This document shows, one piece after another, positions 30,543-41,168 of a stretch of DNA of 64,000 nucleotides. The translations under genes and the position numbers were made by a program. The first letter of the stretch is position 1, and each line of letters starts with the position of its first letter. Source of the DNA: Bacteroidota bacterium (GTDB taxonomy: Bacteria > Bacteroidota > Bacteroidia > Cytophagales > Cyclobacteriaceae); assembly GCA_018267215.1 (NCBI GenBank), contig JAFDYX010000030.1:25879-89878 (forward strand), in the 5' to 3' direction. The notes below the pieces were generated by a model. It saw nothing but the letters and a program-made list of their open reading frames with translations, was not told where the DNA came from and searched no databases.

Positions 30543-31703
30543 TTATTTCACCAGCACTGGCATATTAGCGGCCAGCACCATCAAGTCTTCGTCCTTCACT
30601 TCTTTCTTTTCATCGGCTACCAACAAAAAATTCTCATAAAGAGTGTTGAGTTCTTCGCCTTCAAATTTATGACCCAACAATTCCATGCGATGCTTAAGAG
30701 CCGCACGTCCGCTGCGGGCAGTAAGCACAATGGACGAGGAGGGTACGCCTACTTGTGCCGGGTTAATGATTTCATAATTCTCAGCATGTTTCAAAAAACC
30801 ATCTTGGTGAATACCTGATGAGTGAGCGAAAGCATTCGCTCCTACAATAGCTTTGTTGGCTTGCACCGGCATGCGCATCATACCGGAAACAAGTTTGCTG
30901 ATGCCGTATATTTTTTCCGGTTTAATGTTGGTGGTTAGCTCTAAATCTTTGTGCACTTGCAAAATCATAGCTACTTCTTCTAATGAAGTGTTGCCGGCTC
31001 TTTCGCCTATGCCGTTGATGGTTACCTCTGCCTGGCGTGCTCCGTTCATCAGTCCGGCAATCGTATTAGCTGTGGCCAGCCCTAAGTCGTTGTGGCAATG
31101 CACCGAAATAACTGCCTTCTCTATGTTCTTCACATTTTCAGTCAGATATTTAATCCGTTTGCCATAAAGTTGTGGCAGGCAATAGCCCGTAGTGTCGGGT
31201 ATGTTCACTACATCTGCTCCGGCAGCTATAACTGCCTCAATCAACTGCGCCAAAAAAACTAAATCGGCACGGCCGGCATCTTCGGCAAAAAATTCTACTT
31301 CATAGCCTTTGCTCTTGGCATATTGCACGGCCCACACGCCTTGTTGGAGTACCTGCTCGCGAGTGCTCTTAAATTTGTGTTTGATGTGCACGTCACTGGA
31401 GCCGATGCCGGTATGGATTCTGCCGCGTTGGGCGTGGCGCAGCGCTTCGGCCGCCACATCAATGTCATCTTTTTTGGCGCGGGTAAGCCCGCACACTACG
31501 GGCAACTTTACCGCTTTGGATATTTCGACTACCGACAGAAAATCTCCGGGACTGGAGATAGGGAAGCCTGCTTCAATTACATCTACACCCAATGCTTCTA
31601 ACTCGCGGGCTACAATAATTTTTTCTTCTGTCTTCAACTGACAGCCGGGCACTTGCTCGCCATCGCGAAGGGTGGTATCAAAAATCTGAATTTTGTTAGC
31701 CAT
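30543..31703 (-). CDS. leuA: 2-isopropylmalate synthase, short form without regulatory domain
   Basis: First committed enzyme of leucine synthesis, condensing acetyl-CoA with 2-oxoisovalerate. The HMGL-like barrel has [14 protein letters not shown] at the N terminus and [18 protein letters not shown] carrying metal-binding histidines. The protein is 386 residues against about 510 in E. coli: it ends soon after the linker region and lacks the C-terminal LeuA dimer domain that binds leucine. Feedback inhibition by the usual route is therefore unlikely. Last gene of leuC-leuD-leuB-leuA, 46 bases after leuB. A paralogue such as homocitrate or citramalate synthase is possible but the leu context argues against it. 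Confidence 0.9.
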
Positions 31704-34893: not shown

Positions 34894-34912
34894 AACAAGT
34901 GTTAGTTTGTTA

Positions 34913-35017
34913 TCAAGTATTAAAAAAGCAATCGCCCTGCCGACATAAAGTAAGCAGGGCGATTCGATTTTGTTGGTGCAAGATGGCAACAAATACTGAC
35001 AACCACCTAACAGACAT
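34913..35017 (-). CDS. Candidate leu leader peptide (weak)
   Basis: A 34-codon frame starts with ATG at 35017, before the terminator, and stops with TGA after its T-run. It has five Leu codons, three of them (CTG, CTT, TTA in IALLTL) in or beside the 5' arm of the terminator. It is not strongly leucine-rich, and a ribosome translating through the hairpin fits classical attenuation poorly. An alternative leader, 35118-35035 on the same strand (25-27 codons, ending QQVLGS), has only one or two Leu codons. Neither is convincing alone. Confidence 0.22.
34921..34964 (-). terminator. Intrinsic terminator (attenuator) in the leuC leader
   Basis: On the minus strand AATCGCCCTGC (34964-34954) pairs perfectly with GCAGGGCGATT (34940-34930) and is followed by GCTTTTTTA, a classic intrinsic terminator. 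It sits 27 bases upstream of the leuC start and downstream of no complete gene, so it can only act on the leu leader transcript. This is the hallmark of transcription attenuation. The plus-strand reading lacks a strong T-run. Confidence 0.85.
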
Positions 35018-35086
35018 CTAAAAAAATTTCGTAGCTAACTACCTAACACTTGTTGAAAATAATGGTTGCAAATTTTTCTTCGGCTA

Positions 35087-35120
35087 TTTGTTTCGTGTAC
35101 TACATTTTTCATTAGCATTG
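35087..35120 (+). promoter_or_regulatory. Possible promoter of the ilv operon leader
   Basis: TTTG at 35087-35090 and TAGCATTG at 35113-35120 (one mismatch to TAnnTTTG) are 22 bases apart, fitting Bacteroidota -33/-7 elements. Transcription would begin about 20 bases before the leader ATG at 35147. A similar TAGCATTG stands upstream of accC. Confidence 0.4.
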
Positions 35121-35146
35121 TGAAGAAATTCAGAGAAGAGAAATTT

Positions 35147-35233
35147 ATGAATAATCGTTTCACCATTTTATCAGGCCGCATTGAGTTGATTGTGATCAGC
35201 CTAATTATTGTCTTGACAAAGATGAAGAGGTGA
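35147..35233 (+). CDS. ilv operon leader peptide (28 residues, Leu/Ile/Val run)
   Basis: An ATG frame of 28 codons ending in TGA. Residues 14-23 (LIVISLIIVL) include nine branched-chain residues out of ten, encoded by consecutive Leu, Ile and Val codons; in total 12 of 28 codons are for these three amino acids. It is followed 22 bases later by an intrinsic terminator and then by ilvE. This is the architecture of ilv attenuation in other bacteria: ribosome stalling at these codons when charged Leu, Ile or Val tRNA is scarce would prevent termination. A purine-rich stretch (AGAGAAGAG) precedes the start. Too short for standard gene finders. Confidence 0.85.
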   Translation: MNNRFTILSGRIELIVISLIIVLTKMKR

Positions 35234-35255
35234 TTATTGACATATGAAAAAATCA

Positions 35256-35291
35256 AAAACCGCCTCGATCACTCGGGGCGGTTTTGTTTTA
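35256..35291 (+). terminator. Intrinsic terminator (attenuator) before ilvE
   Basis: AAAACCGCCTCG (35256-35267) pairs with CGGGGCGGTTTT (35274-35285) through 12 base pairs with one T-G wobble, leaving an ATCACT loop, followed by GTTTTAT. It lies 22 bases after the leader peptide stop and 39 bases before the ilvE start, so it governs read-through into the ilv operon. Confidence 0.88.
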
Positions 35292-35330
35292 TAGAGCTAT
35301 GCGCAAACTAACAGTTGTTTTAAATAAAAT

Positions 35331-36221
35331 ATGAAATACTATAACGAAGACACGATCATTTTTTTAGACGGACAATTTGTAAAAATTAGAGATGCCTCAC
35401 CGAGTTTGTTTTCGCAAACACTTCACTATGGCAACGGTGCTTTTGAGGGGATCCGCTCCTACCAAACCATCCACGGCACTAAGATTTTTAAACCTTACGA
35501 GCATTTCGAGCGCCTCATACAAAGTTGCCGGCTTCTCCATATACCCTTTCACTATAGTCTGGAAGAATTGACACAGTTAAGTTATCAGGTGCTCGAAAAA
35601 AATAACCTTTCCAGTGCCTACATCCGCCCGTTGGTAATGGCTGGCGAGAACATGGCCTTATCGCGAACGACAGGCTCATCGTTGATGATAGCCGCCTGGA
35701 CGTGGACTAAATATTTTACGCGCAAAGAAATTGACGTATGTATTTCGTCTATTCAACGGCCGCACCCTAACAGTACAAAAATAGAAGCCAAAGCCAGTGG
35801 TAACTATGTCAATTCCATTATGGCTTCAAACGAAGCGCGCCACCGTGGCTTTGATGAGGCACTGATGCTGGATACTAACGGTTTAGTAGCCGGGGCTCCG
35901 GGCGCCAATTTTTTCTTTGAAAAAAATGGTGTTCTCTATACTACTCCATTAGGAAGTATTTTGCCGGGAATCACTCGCCAAACTGTCATTGAAATTTGCC
36001 GCGAACTGGAACTGCCTATAAAAGAAAAATGGATTAAACCCGAAGAGTTGCTGAATGCCGACAGTGCATTTTTCTGCGGTACTGCCGCAGAGATTTCTGC
36101 CATCGGTTCTATCGAGCGCCATCCGATGAACAAGCCTTGGCAATCATCGCTTGGGTTCATTGTACAACAGGCATACGAAAACATGGTGATGGAAAAAAAT
36201 TACGCTTACGTAATTGTATAG
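35331..36221 (+). CDS. ilvE: Branched-chain amino acid aminotransferase
   Basis: PLP enzyme catalysing the last transamination in valine, isoleucine and leucine synthesis. 296 residues of fold-type IV: LHYGNGAFEGIRSY near the N terminus, the catalytic Lys in KIEAKASGNYVNSIMA, and LPGITRQTVIEI plus FFCGTAAEISAIGSI in the C-terminal half. First structural gene behind the ilv attenuator, 61 bases before ilvD. Confidence 0.95.
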   Translation: MKYYNEDTIIFLDGQFVKIRDASPSLFSQTLHYGNGAFEGIRSYQTIHGTKIFKPYEHFERLIQSCRLLHIPFHYSLEELTQLSYQVLEKNNLSSAYIRPLVMAGENMALSRTTGSSLMIAAWTWTKYFTRKEIDVCISSIQRPHPNSTKIEAKASGNYVNSIMASNEARHRGFDEALMLDTNGLVAGAPGANFFFEKNGVLYTTPLGSILPGITRQTVIEICRELELPIKEKWIKPEELLNADSAFFCGTAAEISAIGSIERHPMNKPWQSSLGFIVQQAYENMVMEKNYAYVIV

Positions 36222-36282: not shown

Positions 36283-37962
36283 ATGTCACTCAACAAATAC
36301 AGCCGCACCCTCACCCAAGACTCCACCCTGCCGGGCGCACAGGCAATGCTGTACGCCATCGGTTTAAAAGACAACGATATGGGAAAAGCGCAAGTGGGTA
36401 TTGCCAGCACCGGCTTTGATGGAAACTCTTGCAACATGCACCTCAACGCGCTGGCCTCGGAAGTAAAGCAAGCCGTGTGGGATCAGGAACTGATCGGTTT
36501 GGTGTTTAACACCATTGGCGTAAGTGATGGCATGAGCAACGGCACCGAAGGCATGCGCTACTCGCTGGTGAGCCGCGAAGTAATTGCCGACTCCATCGAA
36601 ACAATTTGTGGCGCCCAGTATTACGATGGGCTGATAGCCGTAGTAGGCTGCGATAAAAATATGCCCGGCTCGCTCATAGCCATGGGGCGGCTAAACCGAC
36701 CTTCCATCATGGTGTATGGCGGCACCATTGCGGCTGGGCACTGGAAAGGAAAATCACTCAACATCGTGTCGGCCTTCGAAGCATTGGGCGAAAAATTAGC
36801 CAACAAACTTTCGGACGAAGATTACAAAGGCATCATCCAACACTCCTGCCCTGGGGCTGGTGCTTGTGGCGGCATGTACACTGCCAACACCATGGCCTCA
36901 GCTATTGAAGCGCTGGGCATGGCGCTGCCGGGTTCATCCTCTAACCCCGCACTGAGCAAAGAAAAATCGCAGGAGTGTGTGCAGGCAGCACAAGCCATGC
37001 GCCTGATTTTGGAAAAAGATATTAAGCCGAAGGATGTGATGACCTTCGAAGCATTTGAAAACGCCCTGACAGTTGTGATGGCTTTGGGCGGATCTACCAA
37101 CGCGGTCATCCACCTGATCGCTATGGCCAAGTCGGTGGGTGTGCGTTTAACACAAGAAGATTTTCAGCGCATATCAGACAAGACACCGCTCATTGCCGAT
37201 TTTAAGCCCAGCGGCAAATACATGATGGAAGACCTCCATAAAATTGGCGGCACTCCGTTGGTGATGAAGTACCTGCTCAGCAAAGGATTTTTGCATGGCG
37301 ATTGTATCACGGTAACAGGTAAGACTGTGGCTGAAAACCTGCAACACATACCTTCCATCAGTTTTGAAAAACAGGATTTAATTCAGCCTATCGAAAAGCC
37401 CATCAAGAGAACGGGGCACATACAGATTCTATACGGCAACTTAGCCGAAAAAGGATCAGTAGCAAAAATTACCGGAAAGGAAGGCGAACGCTTTAAAGGT
37501 ACAGCACGAGTTTTTAATGGTGAGTTTGAATTAGTGGACGGCATCCGTTCGGGGAAAATAAAAGAAGGTGATGTAATCGTGATCCGTTATGTTGGCCCCA
37601 AGGGCGCACCGGGTATGCCCGAAATGTTAAAGCCTACTTCGCTGATCATGGGTGCGGGCTTGGGCAAATCGGTAGCGCTGATTACTGATGGGCGTTTTTC
37701 GGGAGGTACACATGGATTTGTGGTGGGCCACATCACACCCGAAGCTTTTGATGGTGGCCTGCTCGCCTTAGTGGAAGACGGAGATTGGATTGAGATTGAT
37801 ATTAAAAACAGGCAACTCAACTTGCTCGTAGAAGAAAAAGTGCTGGCTATCCGCAGGTCGCATGCCAAGCAACCTTCGCTGCGGGTAAGTAGTGGAGTGT
37901 TATATAAATATGCTAAACAAGTAAAAACTGCTGCTGATGGATGCGTTACTGACGAAAGCTGA
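36283..37962 (+). CDS. ilvD: Dihydroxy-acid dehydratase
   Basis: Iron-sulfur dehydratase giving 2-oxoisovalerate and 2-oxo-3-methylvalerate. 559 residues with [18 protein letters not shown] and [17 protein letters not shown] (cluster cysteines) and the conserved end segments [16 protein letters not shown] and [18 protein letters not shown]. It overlaps the following ilvB start by 26 bases. Confidence 0.96.
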
Positions 37963-39697
37963 GCCTGCCCATAAGGAGGCTGCAACACTAAAAATTTCCG
38001 GTTCCGAAATTTTACTTCGATGCCTGATTGAAGAAGGTGTGGAAACAATTTTCGGCTACCCCGGAGGAGCTATCATGCCGATATACGATGCGCTCTACTC
38101 TTATGGCGATCAACTCAACCATATTTTAGTGCGGCACGAGCAAGGCTCAATCCACGCGGCACAAGGGTTTGCCCGCGCCAGCGGAAAAGTAGGTGTGGTG
38201 TTTGCCACCTCAGGGCCTGGTGCATTAAATTTAGTTACCGGCCTGGGCGATGCACTCATCGACTCCACGCCTGTTGTGTGCATTACCGGCCAGGTGTTTG
38301 CTCACCTGCTCGGCACAGATGCGTTTCAAGAAACAGATGTTGTCAACACAACTATCCCTGTTACCAAATGGAACGTGCAGGTAACGGAAGCTAAAGATAT
38401 TACCTCAGCCATCAGTAAAGCATTTTACATCGCACAAACAGGCAGGCCCGGCCCGGTGCTGGTGGATATCACCAAGAATGCACAAAATGAAATGTATGAA
38501 TTTGATGGCTATCAAAAATGTAAGAGCATCAGAACGTATAAACCTAAACCTGTTTTACAACAGACAGATATCGAGGCGGCTGCCGCACTCATTAACTCAG
38601 CTAAGAAGCCATATATTCTGGCAGGCCAAGGAATTACTCTTTCGGGTGCCAGCAACGAACTGATAGCTTTTTCGGAAAAGACCGGCATACCGGTGGCCTG
38701 CACGTTGCTGGGCTTGAGTGCCTTCCCCACCGACCATCCGAATTATGTAGGCTTCTTGGGGATGCATGGAAACTATGCGCCTAACGTGCTGACAAATGAA
38801 TGCGATGTACTGATCGGCATTGGCATGCGCTTCGATGACCGCGTAACCGGCAATGTGAACAAATATGCCAAGCAGGCCAAGATCATCCATATTGATATTG
38901 ACTTGGCTGAAATCAATAAGATCATCTCCACGGATGTAGCTGTGCATGCCGATGCCAAAGAAGCGTTGGTGGCACTGACTGCTACCTGCAAACAAACCTC
39001 TCATCCGGAGTGGCGCAAACAATTTCAGGCATTGTATGAAATTGAAAATGAAAAAATAATTCAGAAAGAATATAACCCAAAAGGCAAACTGATGATGGGC
39101 GAAGTGGTTCATCAACTGTCGCAACAAAGCAAAGGTTCGGCTATCATTGTTACCGATGTGGGGCAACATCAGATGATCACTTCGCGCTATTATGAATTTA
39201 AAACGCCACGTACCAACATTACTTCCGGTGGAGCAGGCACCATGGGTTTTGCTTTGCCAGCTGCCATTGGTGCCAAGATGGCCATGCCTAACCGGCCTGT
39301 GGTGGCCGTCATTGGCGATGGTGGTTTTCAGATGACGCTTCAGGAACTGGGCACCATCATGCAAAATAAAATTCCGGTAAAAATAATTGTGCTAAACAAT
39401 CACTTCCTCGGCATGGTACGCCAATGGCAACAGCTGTTTCACAACAAGCGTTACTCATTTACCGAAATACAAAACCCTGATTTCATCAAAATTGTTGAAG
39501 CCTATTCTATTCAGACGCGGCAGGTAACAGAACGGCACGAGTTGGCCGCGGCCATAGACGAAATGCTGAACTCAACCGGAGCATATTTTTTAGAGGTAGT
39601 GGTAGGTAAAGAAGACAATGTATTTCCGATGATACCGGCAGGAGCCGCGGTGAGCGAGGTGTTGTTAGAGGCTCCAACAAAAAATTCTCATCATTAA
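37937..39697 (+). CDS. ilvB: Acetolactate synthase large (catalytic) subunit
   Basis: Thiamine-diphosphate and FAD enzyme for the first common step. 586 residues: [18 protein letters not shown] and [17 protein letters not shown] at the active-site entry, the FAD domain with [14 protein letters not shown], and the ThDP-binding [17 protein letters not shown]. The start ATG lies inside ilvD with a 26-base overlap and reads into [15 protein letters not shown]. Confidence 0.96.
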
Positions 39698-39727: not shown

Positions 39728-40018
39728 ATGAAACAAGACTTCACCATACAACTCAGCTCAGAAAATAATTTTTCCGTTTTAAATCGCATCATCAATATTT
39801 TAAACAGGCGCAGAGTACGGATTAAAAAACTGATGGGCTTTGAAGATGACAACGACTTCCGCAAAGGCGGTATAATATTGTTAGTACACACTACGGCTGA
39901 CTTAGCCGAAAAATGCAAACGACAATTAGAAAAACTGATTGAAGTAGAAGAAGTGTGCCTGTCAGAAGGGAGCACACTATATTTGGAACAGACCGAACGC
40001 ATCGTGGATGTAGATTGA
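39728..40018 (+). CDS. ilvN: Acetolactate synthase small (regulatory) subunit
   Basis: A 96-residue ACT-domain protein (DFTIQLSSENNFSVLNRIINILNRRRVRI) that stimulates IlvB and normally gives valine feedback control. It is the short form with just one ACT domain, like IlvM/IlvN of about 90-100 residues, and not the 160-residue IlvH type. Starts 30 bases after ilvB. Confidence 0.92.
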   Translation: MKQDFTIQLSSENNFSVLNRIINILNRRRVRIKKLMGFEDDNDFRKGGIILLVHTTADLAEKCKRQLEKLIEVEEVCLSEGSTLYLEQTERIVDVD

Positions 40019-40097: not shown

Positions 40098-41168
40098 ATG
40101 GCAAAGATCAATTTTGGAGGCACCATCGAAGAAGTGGTAACACGCGAAGAATTTCCGATGGAGAAGGCATTGGATACATTAAAAAATGAAACCATCGCCA
40201 TCATCGGCTATGGCGTGCAAGGACCGGCTCAGGCCCTCAACCTGCGCGACAACGGATTCCGTGTCATCATCGGCCAGCGCAAAGGCGGCAAAACGTGGGA
40301 CAAAGCCATTCAGCATGGATGGGTTCCGGGCGAAACATTATTTGAAATTGAAGAAGCCGCTAAACGCGGCACCATCATTCAATATCTTCTCTCCGATGCA
40401 GGGCAGATTGCCACTTGGCCTGCCATCAAGCCGCACCTCACCAAAGGCAAAGCCTTATATTTTTCGCATGGCTTTGGCGTAACATTTAAAGAGCAAACGG
40501 GAATTGTACCGCCCGCTGATGTTGACGTAATCTTAGCTGCACCGAAAGGATCTGGAACCTCCGTTCGCAGATTATTTTTACAAGGCAAAGGCATCAATTC
40601 AAGCTATGCGGTTTTTCAAAATGCTACCGGTCATGCAGCCACACGCGCGATAGCGCTGGGCATTGGCGTTGGCTCGGGTTATTTGTTTGAAACAGATTTT
40701 AAAAAAGAAGTGTACTCTGACCTGACCGGTGAGCGCGGTACGCTGATGGGTGCCATCGCAGGGATATTCGAAGCACAGTATGAAGTGCTCCGCTCTAAAG
40801 GCCACTCTCCTTCTGAAGCGTTTAATGAAACCGTAGAAGAACTGACTCAAAGCCTGATGCCGTTGGTAGCCGAAAACGGAATGGACTGGATGTATGCCAA
40901 CTGCTCTACCACAGCCCAACGTGGCGCATTAGACTGGAAAAAGAAATTCAAAGCAGCTACACTTCCTGTCTTCAAAGAACTGTACGAAAGCGTAGCCAGC
41001 GGAGCTGAAGCTAAACGCACCATTGACACTTGCAGCAAACCTGACTATCGCGAAAAATTAGCTGACGAGTTGAAGGAGTTGCGCAACAGCGAGCTGTGGC
41101 AAGCCGGGGCTGCCGTCCGTGCGCTGCGCCCTGAAAAGGAAAAGGTGGAAGCGAGTATGATCAACTAA
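40098..41168 (+). CDS. ilvC: Ketol-acid reductoisomerase
   Basis: NADPH-dependent enzyme of the second common step. 356 residues: IAIIGYGVQGPAQALNLRDNG with the dinucleotide-binding loop and following arginine (VIIGQRKGGKTW), LAAPKGSGTSVRRLF, and the knotted C-terminal domain with DLTGERGTLMGAIAGIFEAQYE. Last gene of the ilv operon, followed by a strong terminator. Confidence 0.96.
   Translation: MAKINFGGTIEEVVTREEFPMEKALDTLKNETIAIIGYGVQGPAQALNLRDNGFRVIIGQRKGGKTWDKAIQHGWVPGETLFEIEEAAKRGTIIQYLLSDAGQIATWPAIKPHLTKGKALYFSHGFGVTFKEQTGIVPPADVDVILAAPKGSGTSVRRLFLQGKGINSSYAVFQNATGHAATRAIALGIGVGSGYLFETDFKKEVYSDLTGERGTLMGAIAGIFEAQYEVLRSKGHSPSEAFNETVEELTQSLMPLVAENGMDWMYANCSTTAQRGALDWKKKFKAATLPVFKELYESVASGAEAKRTIDTCSKPDYREKLADELKELRNSELWQAGAAVRALRPEKEKVEASMIN

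Follow-up and report, generated by a model that had tools for sequence, protein, structure and literature searches.

A candidate ribosome-mediated attenuator of the leader-peptide type upstream of ilvEDBNC in a Bacteroidota genome

The window, a 64,000-nucleotide stretch of a Bacteroidota contig, carries branched-chain amino acid (BCAA) biosynthesis genes downstream of a short leader frame, in the order ilvE-D-B-N-C. The pathway matches the Ile/Leu/Val codon run of the leader. The genes of the operon were assigned as follows.

35331..36221, + strand: ilvE, branched-chain aminotransferase (NCBIfam TIGR01122 and NF005146, above cut-off)
36283..37962, + strand: ilvD, dihydroxy-acid dehydratase (TIGR00110, above cut-off)
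37937..39697, + strand: ilvB, acetolactate synthase large subunit (TIGR00118, above cut-off)
39728..40018, + strand: ilvN-like small subunit, 96 aa, ACT domain (Pfam PF13710 and PF22629, above cut-off)
40098..41168, + strand: ilvC, ketol-acid reductoisomerase (TIGR00465, above cut-off)

The ilvN-like protein (39728-40018) gave no NCBIfam match at E 1e-10. The divergent genes were named leuC, leuD, leuB and leuA by NCBIfam/Pfam. We must also note that LeuA (30543-31703, - strand) has 386 aa, and that its match to the LeuA models, which are about 500-520 positions long, stops after the first ~380. Its C-terminal part is missing, and the IlvN-like subunit is short, too, with only 96 aa. A loss of feedback regulation through the short LeuA and the short IlvN-like subunit would give attenuation more weight.

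The leader region contains the following elements.

35088..35120, + strand: predicted promoter, TTG-N22-TAGCATTG (pattern match)
35147..35233, + strand: leader peptide ORF, 28 codons and TGA, encoding MNNRFTILSGRIELIVISLIIVLTKMKR
35186..35215, + strand: regulatory codon run LIVISLIIVL (residues 14-23), with 9/10 being Ile/Leu/Val
35256..35291, + strand: predicted intrinsic terminator hairpin with T-tract (prediction; alignment of 20 relatives)

Rereading of the sequence confirmed the 28-codon frame of the initial annotation, with nine Leu/Ile/Val among residues 14-23, and the coordinates of its stop, 22-base spacer, 12-bp terminator with T-run and 39 bases to ilvE hold as well. The hairpin has 12 pairs and a 4-base loop inside 35256-35285, and is followed by TTTTGTTTTA, the last base of which is 35291; the ilvE ATG starts at 35331. 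The predicted terminator energy was -19.0 or -19.9 kcal/mol, with slightly different ends. The 35088-35120 match we take to be Bacteroidota-type -33/-7 promoter elements, according to their consensus. The promoter pattern lies 5′ of 17 of 95 leaders, compared with 57 of 1900 shuffles, and has no match in the remaining 78.

The arrangement recurred in relatives. Under a rule of at least 6 Ile/Leu/Val (ILV) residues in 10, a terminator 8-45 nt downstream and a position within 600 bases of ilvE, a BCAA-rich frame with terminator was found in 78 of 80 named loci, which are the best IlvE-alignment matches (no random sample) and partially overlap with the unnamed loci L001-L026. Dinucleotide shuffles passed the same rule in 8 of 400 cases, and random windows, taken from the same loci as the real upstream regions, also in 8 of 400. 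With at least 8 ILV in 10, the counts were 57/80, 1/400 and 1/400, respectively. Leader and terminator were present in 23 of the 26 IlvE loci L001-L026. A phylum-wide draw of 247 genomes yielded 18 with an IlvE match at E ≤ 1e-60, of which 16 were scored (G000 and G036 were left out; the latter is identical with L023, a locus in which the leader search was negative). Fifteen of these 16 loci passed the rule (gaps 8-60), and 14 were judged convincing. Moreover, the ILV run was confined to one frame: 95 distinct units, preselected for at least 7 ILV in frame, had on average 8.26 ILV per 10 in frame, whereas the two remaining frames gave 3.65 and 0.36. Conservation of the Ile/Leu/Val codon run in related loci, which the initial annotation had named as support for its reading, was observed.

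Upstream scans showed the leader to be absent or undetected in L020, L021, L023, L073, L076 and L139, and unconvincing in L145; another gene ends close 5′ of ilvE in L021, L073, L076 and, by eye, L139. Chance frames probably account for several units (the KEIGEEIQQVHF/KEIEEEIQQVHF frames of L092, L099 and L109; L072; the first unit of L074; L145). In L083, L096 and L100, the scanner apparently picked the wrong frame. Dubious units that passed the rule were kept in the 78/80 count, in the shuffle and random-window comparison and in the duplex test of 109 units described below. The unit scan missed L022, although this locus is leader-bearing in the L001-L026 survey. The organism names of L072, L074 and L110 belong to other phyla; these are probably bins with a wrong label. 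A covariance model of close relatives (R1) was built from 20 of the 23 leader-bearing L001-L026 loci, with L022, L024 and L025 unaligned. At E ≤ 0.001 it found 9 of the 291 genomes searched from the order, among them that of the window and some used in training; being narrow, the model says little on prevalence. In the genome of the window, the ilv site alone was significant.

Compensatory changes in the hairpin had also been named as support, and here, too, the outcome was favourable. In 20 aligned relatives, 99.5% of the cells of the terminator helix were paired (30-57% when slid), and two-sided changes occurred in 8 cells compared with a shuffled mean of 2.1, but in only 2 of 10 pairs, a number equalled in 118 of 500 shuffles. 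A synonymous-change coding test gave 69 synonymous and 68 non-synonymous single changes (pairwise counts, 14 sequences) and is uninformative, as the same bases are constrained by RNA pairing.

The initial annotation reported no clear antiterminator. This point has to be revised, as one was located computationally.

35227..35232, + strand: antiterminator 5′ strand core GAGGTG, overlapping the last codon AGG and the stop TGA
35261..35266, + strand: antiterminator 3′ strand core CGCCTC, within the terminator 5′ arm

The leader tail of the window reads AAG AGG TGA and faces CGCCTC in the terminator arm; the duplex between leader end and arm scored -11.8, compared with a shuffled mean of -6.7 (p 0.02). 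Many close relatives have a leader ending in VIILRKPGL-stop, in which the last codons, CCG GGG CTG, together with the stop can pair with the 5′ arm of the terminator, ACCGCCCCG. The same pairing is made of other letters in L019 (CAGGGCGG with CCGCCCTG), L025 (GTCGGATG with CATCCGAC) and L086 (GTGAGAA with TTCTCAC). The layout, in which the antiterminator strand contains or adjoins the stop codon, recurs across relatives, and the GAGGTG:CGCCTC letters, common only to the closest kin of the window, probably reflect one event.

Across 109 distinct units, the mean duplex energy was -13.6 kcal/mol, compared with -8.65 kcal/mol for shuffled leader ends and -9.19 kcal/mol for mismatched leader-end/arm pairs (n = 11,408). 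The duplex reached p < 0.05 in 65 units and fell below 0.01 in 32; the 44 misses are explained partly by the fixed 27-nt leader stretch, which misses long tails, and partly by the probable chance frames. In the 20 aligned relatives, the antiterminator was 77.3% paired (35-51% when slid) with a covariation score of 0.192 (0.074-0.122 when slid), whereas its 5 two-sided pairs were not above the slid versions (2-6) and were equalled in 65 of 500 shuffles. The distal part (columns 68-74) was the weaker half.

For the ribosome geometry, a ribosome was taken to cover 13 bases past the first base of the A-site codon. With the ribosome stalled mid-run, the free leader folded onto the terminator arm with a mean of -16.5 kcal/mol; with the ribosome at the stop, the value was -0.9 kcal/mol. 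At least 5 kcal/mol was lost between the two positions in 108 of 109 units, in part simply because the free RNA stretch is shorter at the stop. Of the 107 units with five or more such pairs, 105 had their first paired base in the interval from -20 to +13 relative to the stop codon (median -8). Shuffling of the spacer changed the stalled value from -16.8 to -10.0 (95 units). At least 6 pairs into the terminator arm formed in 95/95 real and 1257/1900 shuffled sequences, meaning that the energy discriminates and the pair number alone does not. For the window, the values were -11.0 (stalled mid-run), 0.0 (at the stop) and -19.9 (terminator). As the antiterminator is weaker than the terminator, switching must be kinetic, and the antiterminator must form first.

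In the enterobacterial scheme, an untranslated leader forms an early hairpin that puts the antiterminator out of action; this protector marks the four-segment subtype and is no requirement of the attenuator class. Pairing of the stop region with the early leader revealed no conserved protector hairpin across the 95 units, and the complementarity was near chance (p < 0.05 in 10/95 units; mean -13.9 vs -12.5; p = 0.08 for the window). The unconstrained fold of the window pairs early leader codons with the stop region. From the absence of a conserved protector, an untranslated leader would be expected to read through. The simplest reading, we infer, is a two-state switch in which the ribosome itself is the blocking element.

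Taken together, we estimate a probability of about 90% that ilvEDBNC is preceded by a ribosome-mediated transcription attenuator of the leader-peptide type. The locus combines the features of this class, i.e., an ORF with codons for the pathway products, a predicted terminator, a computed antiterminator and a matching biosynthetic operon. Computation supports the leader, the terminator, the antiterminator complementarity, the ribosome-footprint geometry and the conservation. The original suggestion, that translation of a BCAA-rich leader attenuates the ilv operon, is supported and agrees with the feasible tests of the anatomy. Transcription would start near 35125, and the leader would be translated closely behind RNA polymerase, presumably in a coupled manner. 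With ample charged Ile-, Leu- and Val-tRNA, the ribosome would reach the stop codon and cover 35227-35232. With the antiterminator strand covered, the terminator (35256-35291) would form, and the operon would be off. If one charged tRNA were short, the ribosome would stall in the codon run and the stop-codon strand would stay free. This strand could then pair with the emerging terminator 5′ arm, and the polymerase would read into ilvE. The operon is thereby predicted to respond to amino acids.

A different explanation is that a DNA-binding protein controls the operon from TAACNNNNGTT sites flanking the leader, with the hairpin being a constitutive partial terminator or a 5′ stabiliser and the frame incidental. 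The sites themselves are conspicuous: in 41 close relatives, with the ilvE strand scanned, 79 were found in 18,231 upstream bases compared with 17 in the remaining 460,099, and 33 of these 41 loci have at least two within 450 bases before ilvE. Their usual spots are about 300 bases before ilvE (5′ of the predicted promoter) and about 20 bases before the start codon, and L020 kept the site before ilvE with the leader seemingly missing. A pattern scan of the leu-ilv intergenic region of the window gave three copies.

34894-34905, - strand: CTAACNNTTGTT copy, preceding leuC
35043-35054, + strand: CTAACNNTTGTT copy
35308-35319, + strand: CTAACNNTTGTT copy

The whole-genome pattern count was 8, below the 20 for the same pattern reversed, with 3 of the 8 in the leu-ilv intergenic region; one of the five other copies precedes a type III glutamine synthetase gene (L127). 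The repeated sites are probably operators of a putative shared regulator. Nevertheless, a DNA-binding protein leaves the ILV run and the leader/terminator pairing unexplained, and the distant loci L072-L110 have the unit, yet 0/39 carry TAACNNNNGTT within 450 bases before ilvE. We thus consider this explanation improbable as a replacement for the attenuator, and the attenuator and a TAACNNNNGTT layer may act together.

Still less probable is translational control, with the leader acting on ilvE translation via re-initiation or structure. Re-initiation has been proposed for leader genes near structural genes, as stated in PMC4833913. Here, however, 97 bases separate the leader stop from ilvE, with a conserved hairpin of the intrinsic-terminator type and a T-tract in between. 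The ilv operons of Firmicutes are under T-box control, and direct sensing of tRNA or a metabolite by a T-box or another known riboswitch or leader family was also considered; we regard it as extremely unlikely. Rfam models (T-box, Bacteroid-trp, amino-acid leaders and others) gave 0 matches in the window at their gathering scores. When 421 bases were scanned permissively, the model of the Pseudomonas rnk leader (rnk_pseudo) matched 35191-35293 with 33.1 bits and E 0.00063, but the family cut-off is 55 bits, and we took this match for the terminator hairpin. Phe_leader scored 20.2 bits in the permissive scan, also compared with a cut-off of 55.

The proposed ribosome-mediated attenuator before ilvE has likely counterparts at other operons of the same genome. 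A WWW leader, MYQFTINAWWWHRSINDRCRSLYC, precedes trpE (L153 578-704), and an HHHH leader, MMNNTHTTHHHHTILTDGRLMR, precedes hisG (L154 446-575), with a clear terminator downstream of each. The leader end folded onto the terminator arm with -18.3 (trp) and -19.0 kcal/mol (his), both values being raw energies with no shuffled control. A Thr-rich leader, MQSSHLISISAATVSFTGTGATIITTTIITG, lies before a thrA-like gene (L155 823-918); its hairpin is weaker, and an antiterminator is not clearly recognisable. At the second homoserine dehydrogenase gene (L152, L156) no leader was seen, and another long frame precedes the gene. The presence of trp-, his- and thr-type leaders makes leader-peptide attenuation a likely general habit in this genome.

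We also observed units in series. Two or three complete BCAA units precede ilvE in 17 of the 39 distant loci L072-L110 (L073, L076, L096 and L100 scored as zero units) and in 1 of 41 loci L031-L071, namely L069. Three complete leader-terminator units are found in L090, L097 and L105. We see an even chance that ilv, trp, his and perhaps thr share a phylum-wide two-state design, which has no protector and places the stop within or next to the antiterminator strand, and that stacked units would all need relief.

The E. coli ilvGMEDA, ilvB and leu attenuators comprise a BCAA-rich leader peptide, an intrinsic terminator and an antiterminator that shares the terminator 5′ arm. The element described here agrees with them in its BCAA leader, terminator, shared-arm antiterminator and downstream biosynthetic operon; it differs in that no conserved 1:2 protector hairpin was found, and homology is not claimed. 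Translation in Bacteroidota starts without a Shine-Dalgarno sequence, unlike in E. coli. The actinobacterial trp and leuS attenuators, as outlined in PMC1262725, have a leader peptide with antiterminator and terminator hairpins, i.e., the same two-hairpin layout in another phylum and before other operons. In the same phylum, and with the same proposed mechanism, one sentence on Flavobacterium psychrophilum (section 19 of PMC9723704) mentions leader-peptide attenuation of amino-acid operons from transcriptome data; that section mentions neither an ilv leader nor an antiterminator. A passage on B. thetaiotaomicron contains a remark on possible leader peptides (PMC7366714). The Bacteroid-trp motif (RF01692) is tabulated as a probable cis-regulatory RNA of Bacteroidetes (in a table of PMC2864571); it is a trp element by name, and the window does not match its model. 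Attenuation of his is discussed in general terms in a section of PMC8305728, and ‘Bacteroid’ and ‘ilv’ have no occurrence in the main text of PMC2965389. No Bacteroidota ilv attenuator was described in the titles and abstract beginnings searched, with an earlier prediction being possible (Lopatovskaya 2010, Lyubetsky 2007; both cited in PMC4833913). Given the F. psychrophilum sentence, the B. thetaiotaomicron remark and the Bacteroid-trp motif, the initial view that such systems are little described in Bacteroidota is fair within the literature searched.

The kind of mechanism is classical; the switch structure and the occurrence of the element in most relatives examined are the additions. A variant may eventually be recognised in the overlap with the stop codon, the apparent lack of a protector and the stacking of units. 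Ribosome-mediated attenuation works only with a ribosome close behind RNA polymerase. If Bacteroidota are confirmed to employ it routinely at several amino-acid operons, in a phylum that starts translation without Shine-Dalgarno sequences, this would be strong evidence of transcription-translation coupling there, and the stop-codon overlap provides a simple handle for testing it. An annotation rule is also gained, for an element that Rfam did not match in the window and that lies before ilvE in most loci examined.

For the divergent leu operon, a search of the minus strand for a BCAA-run leader gave none, the best frame having 5/10. The terminator scanner listed no terminator before leuC, despite a hairpin recognised by eye, AATCGCCCTG..CAGGGCGATT with a T-tract, directly before this gene (window about 34922-34964, - strand). 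It directly follows a promoter-like CATCTTGC, and a similar arrangement was seen in L031. We propose that this hairpin serves either as a further attenuator, one without a leader, or as a 5′ stabiliser.
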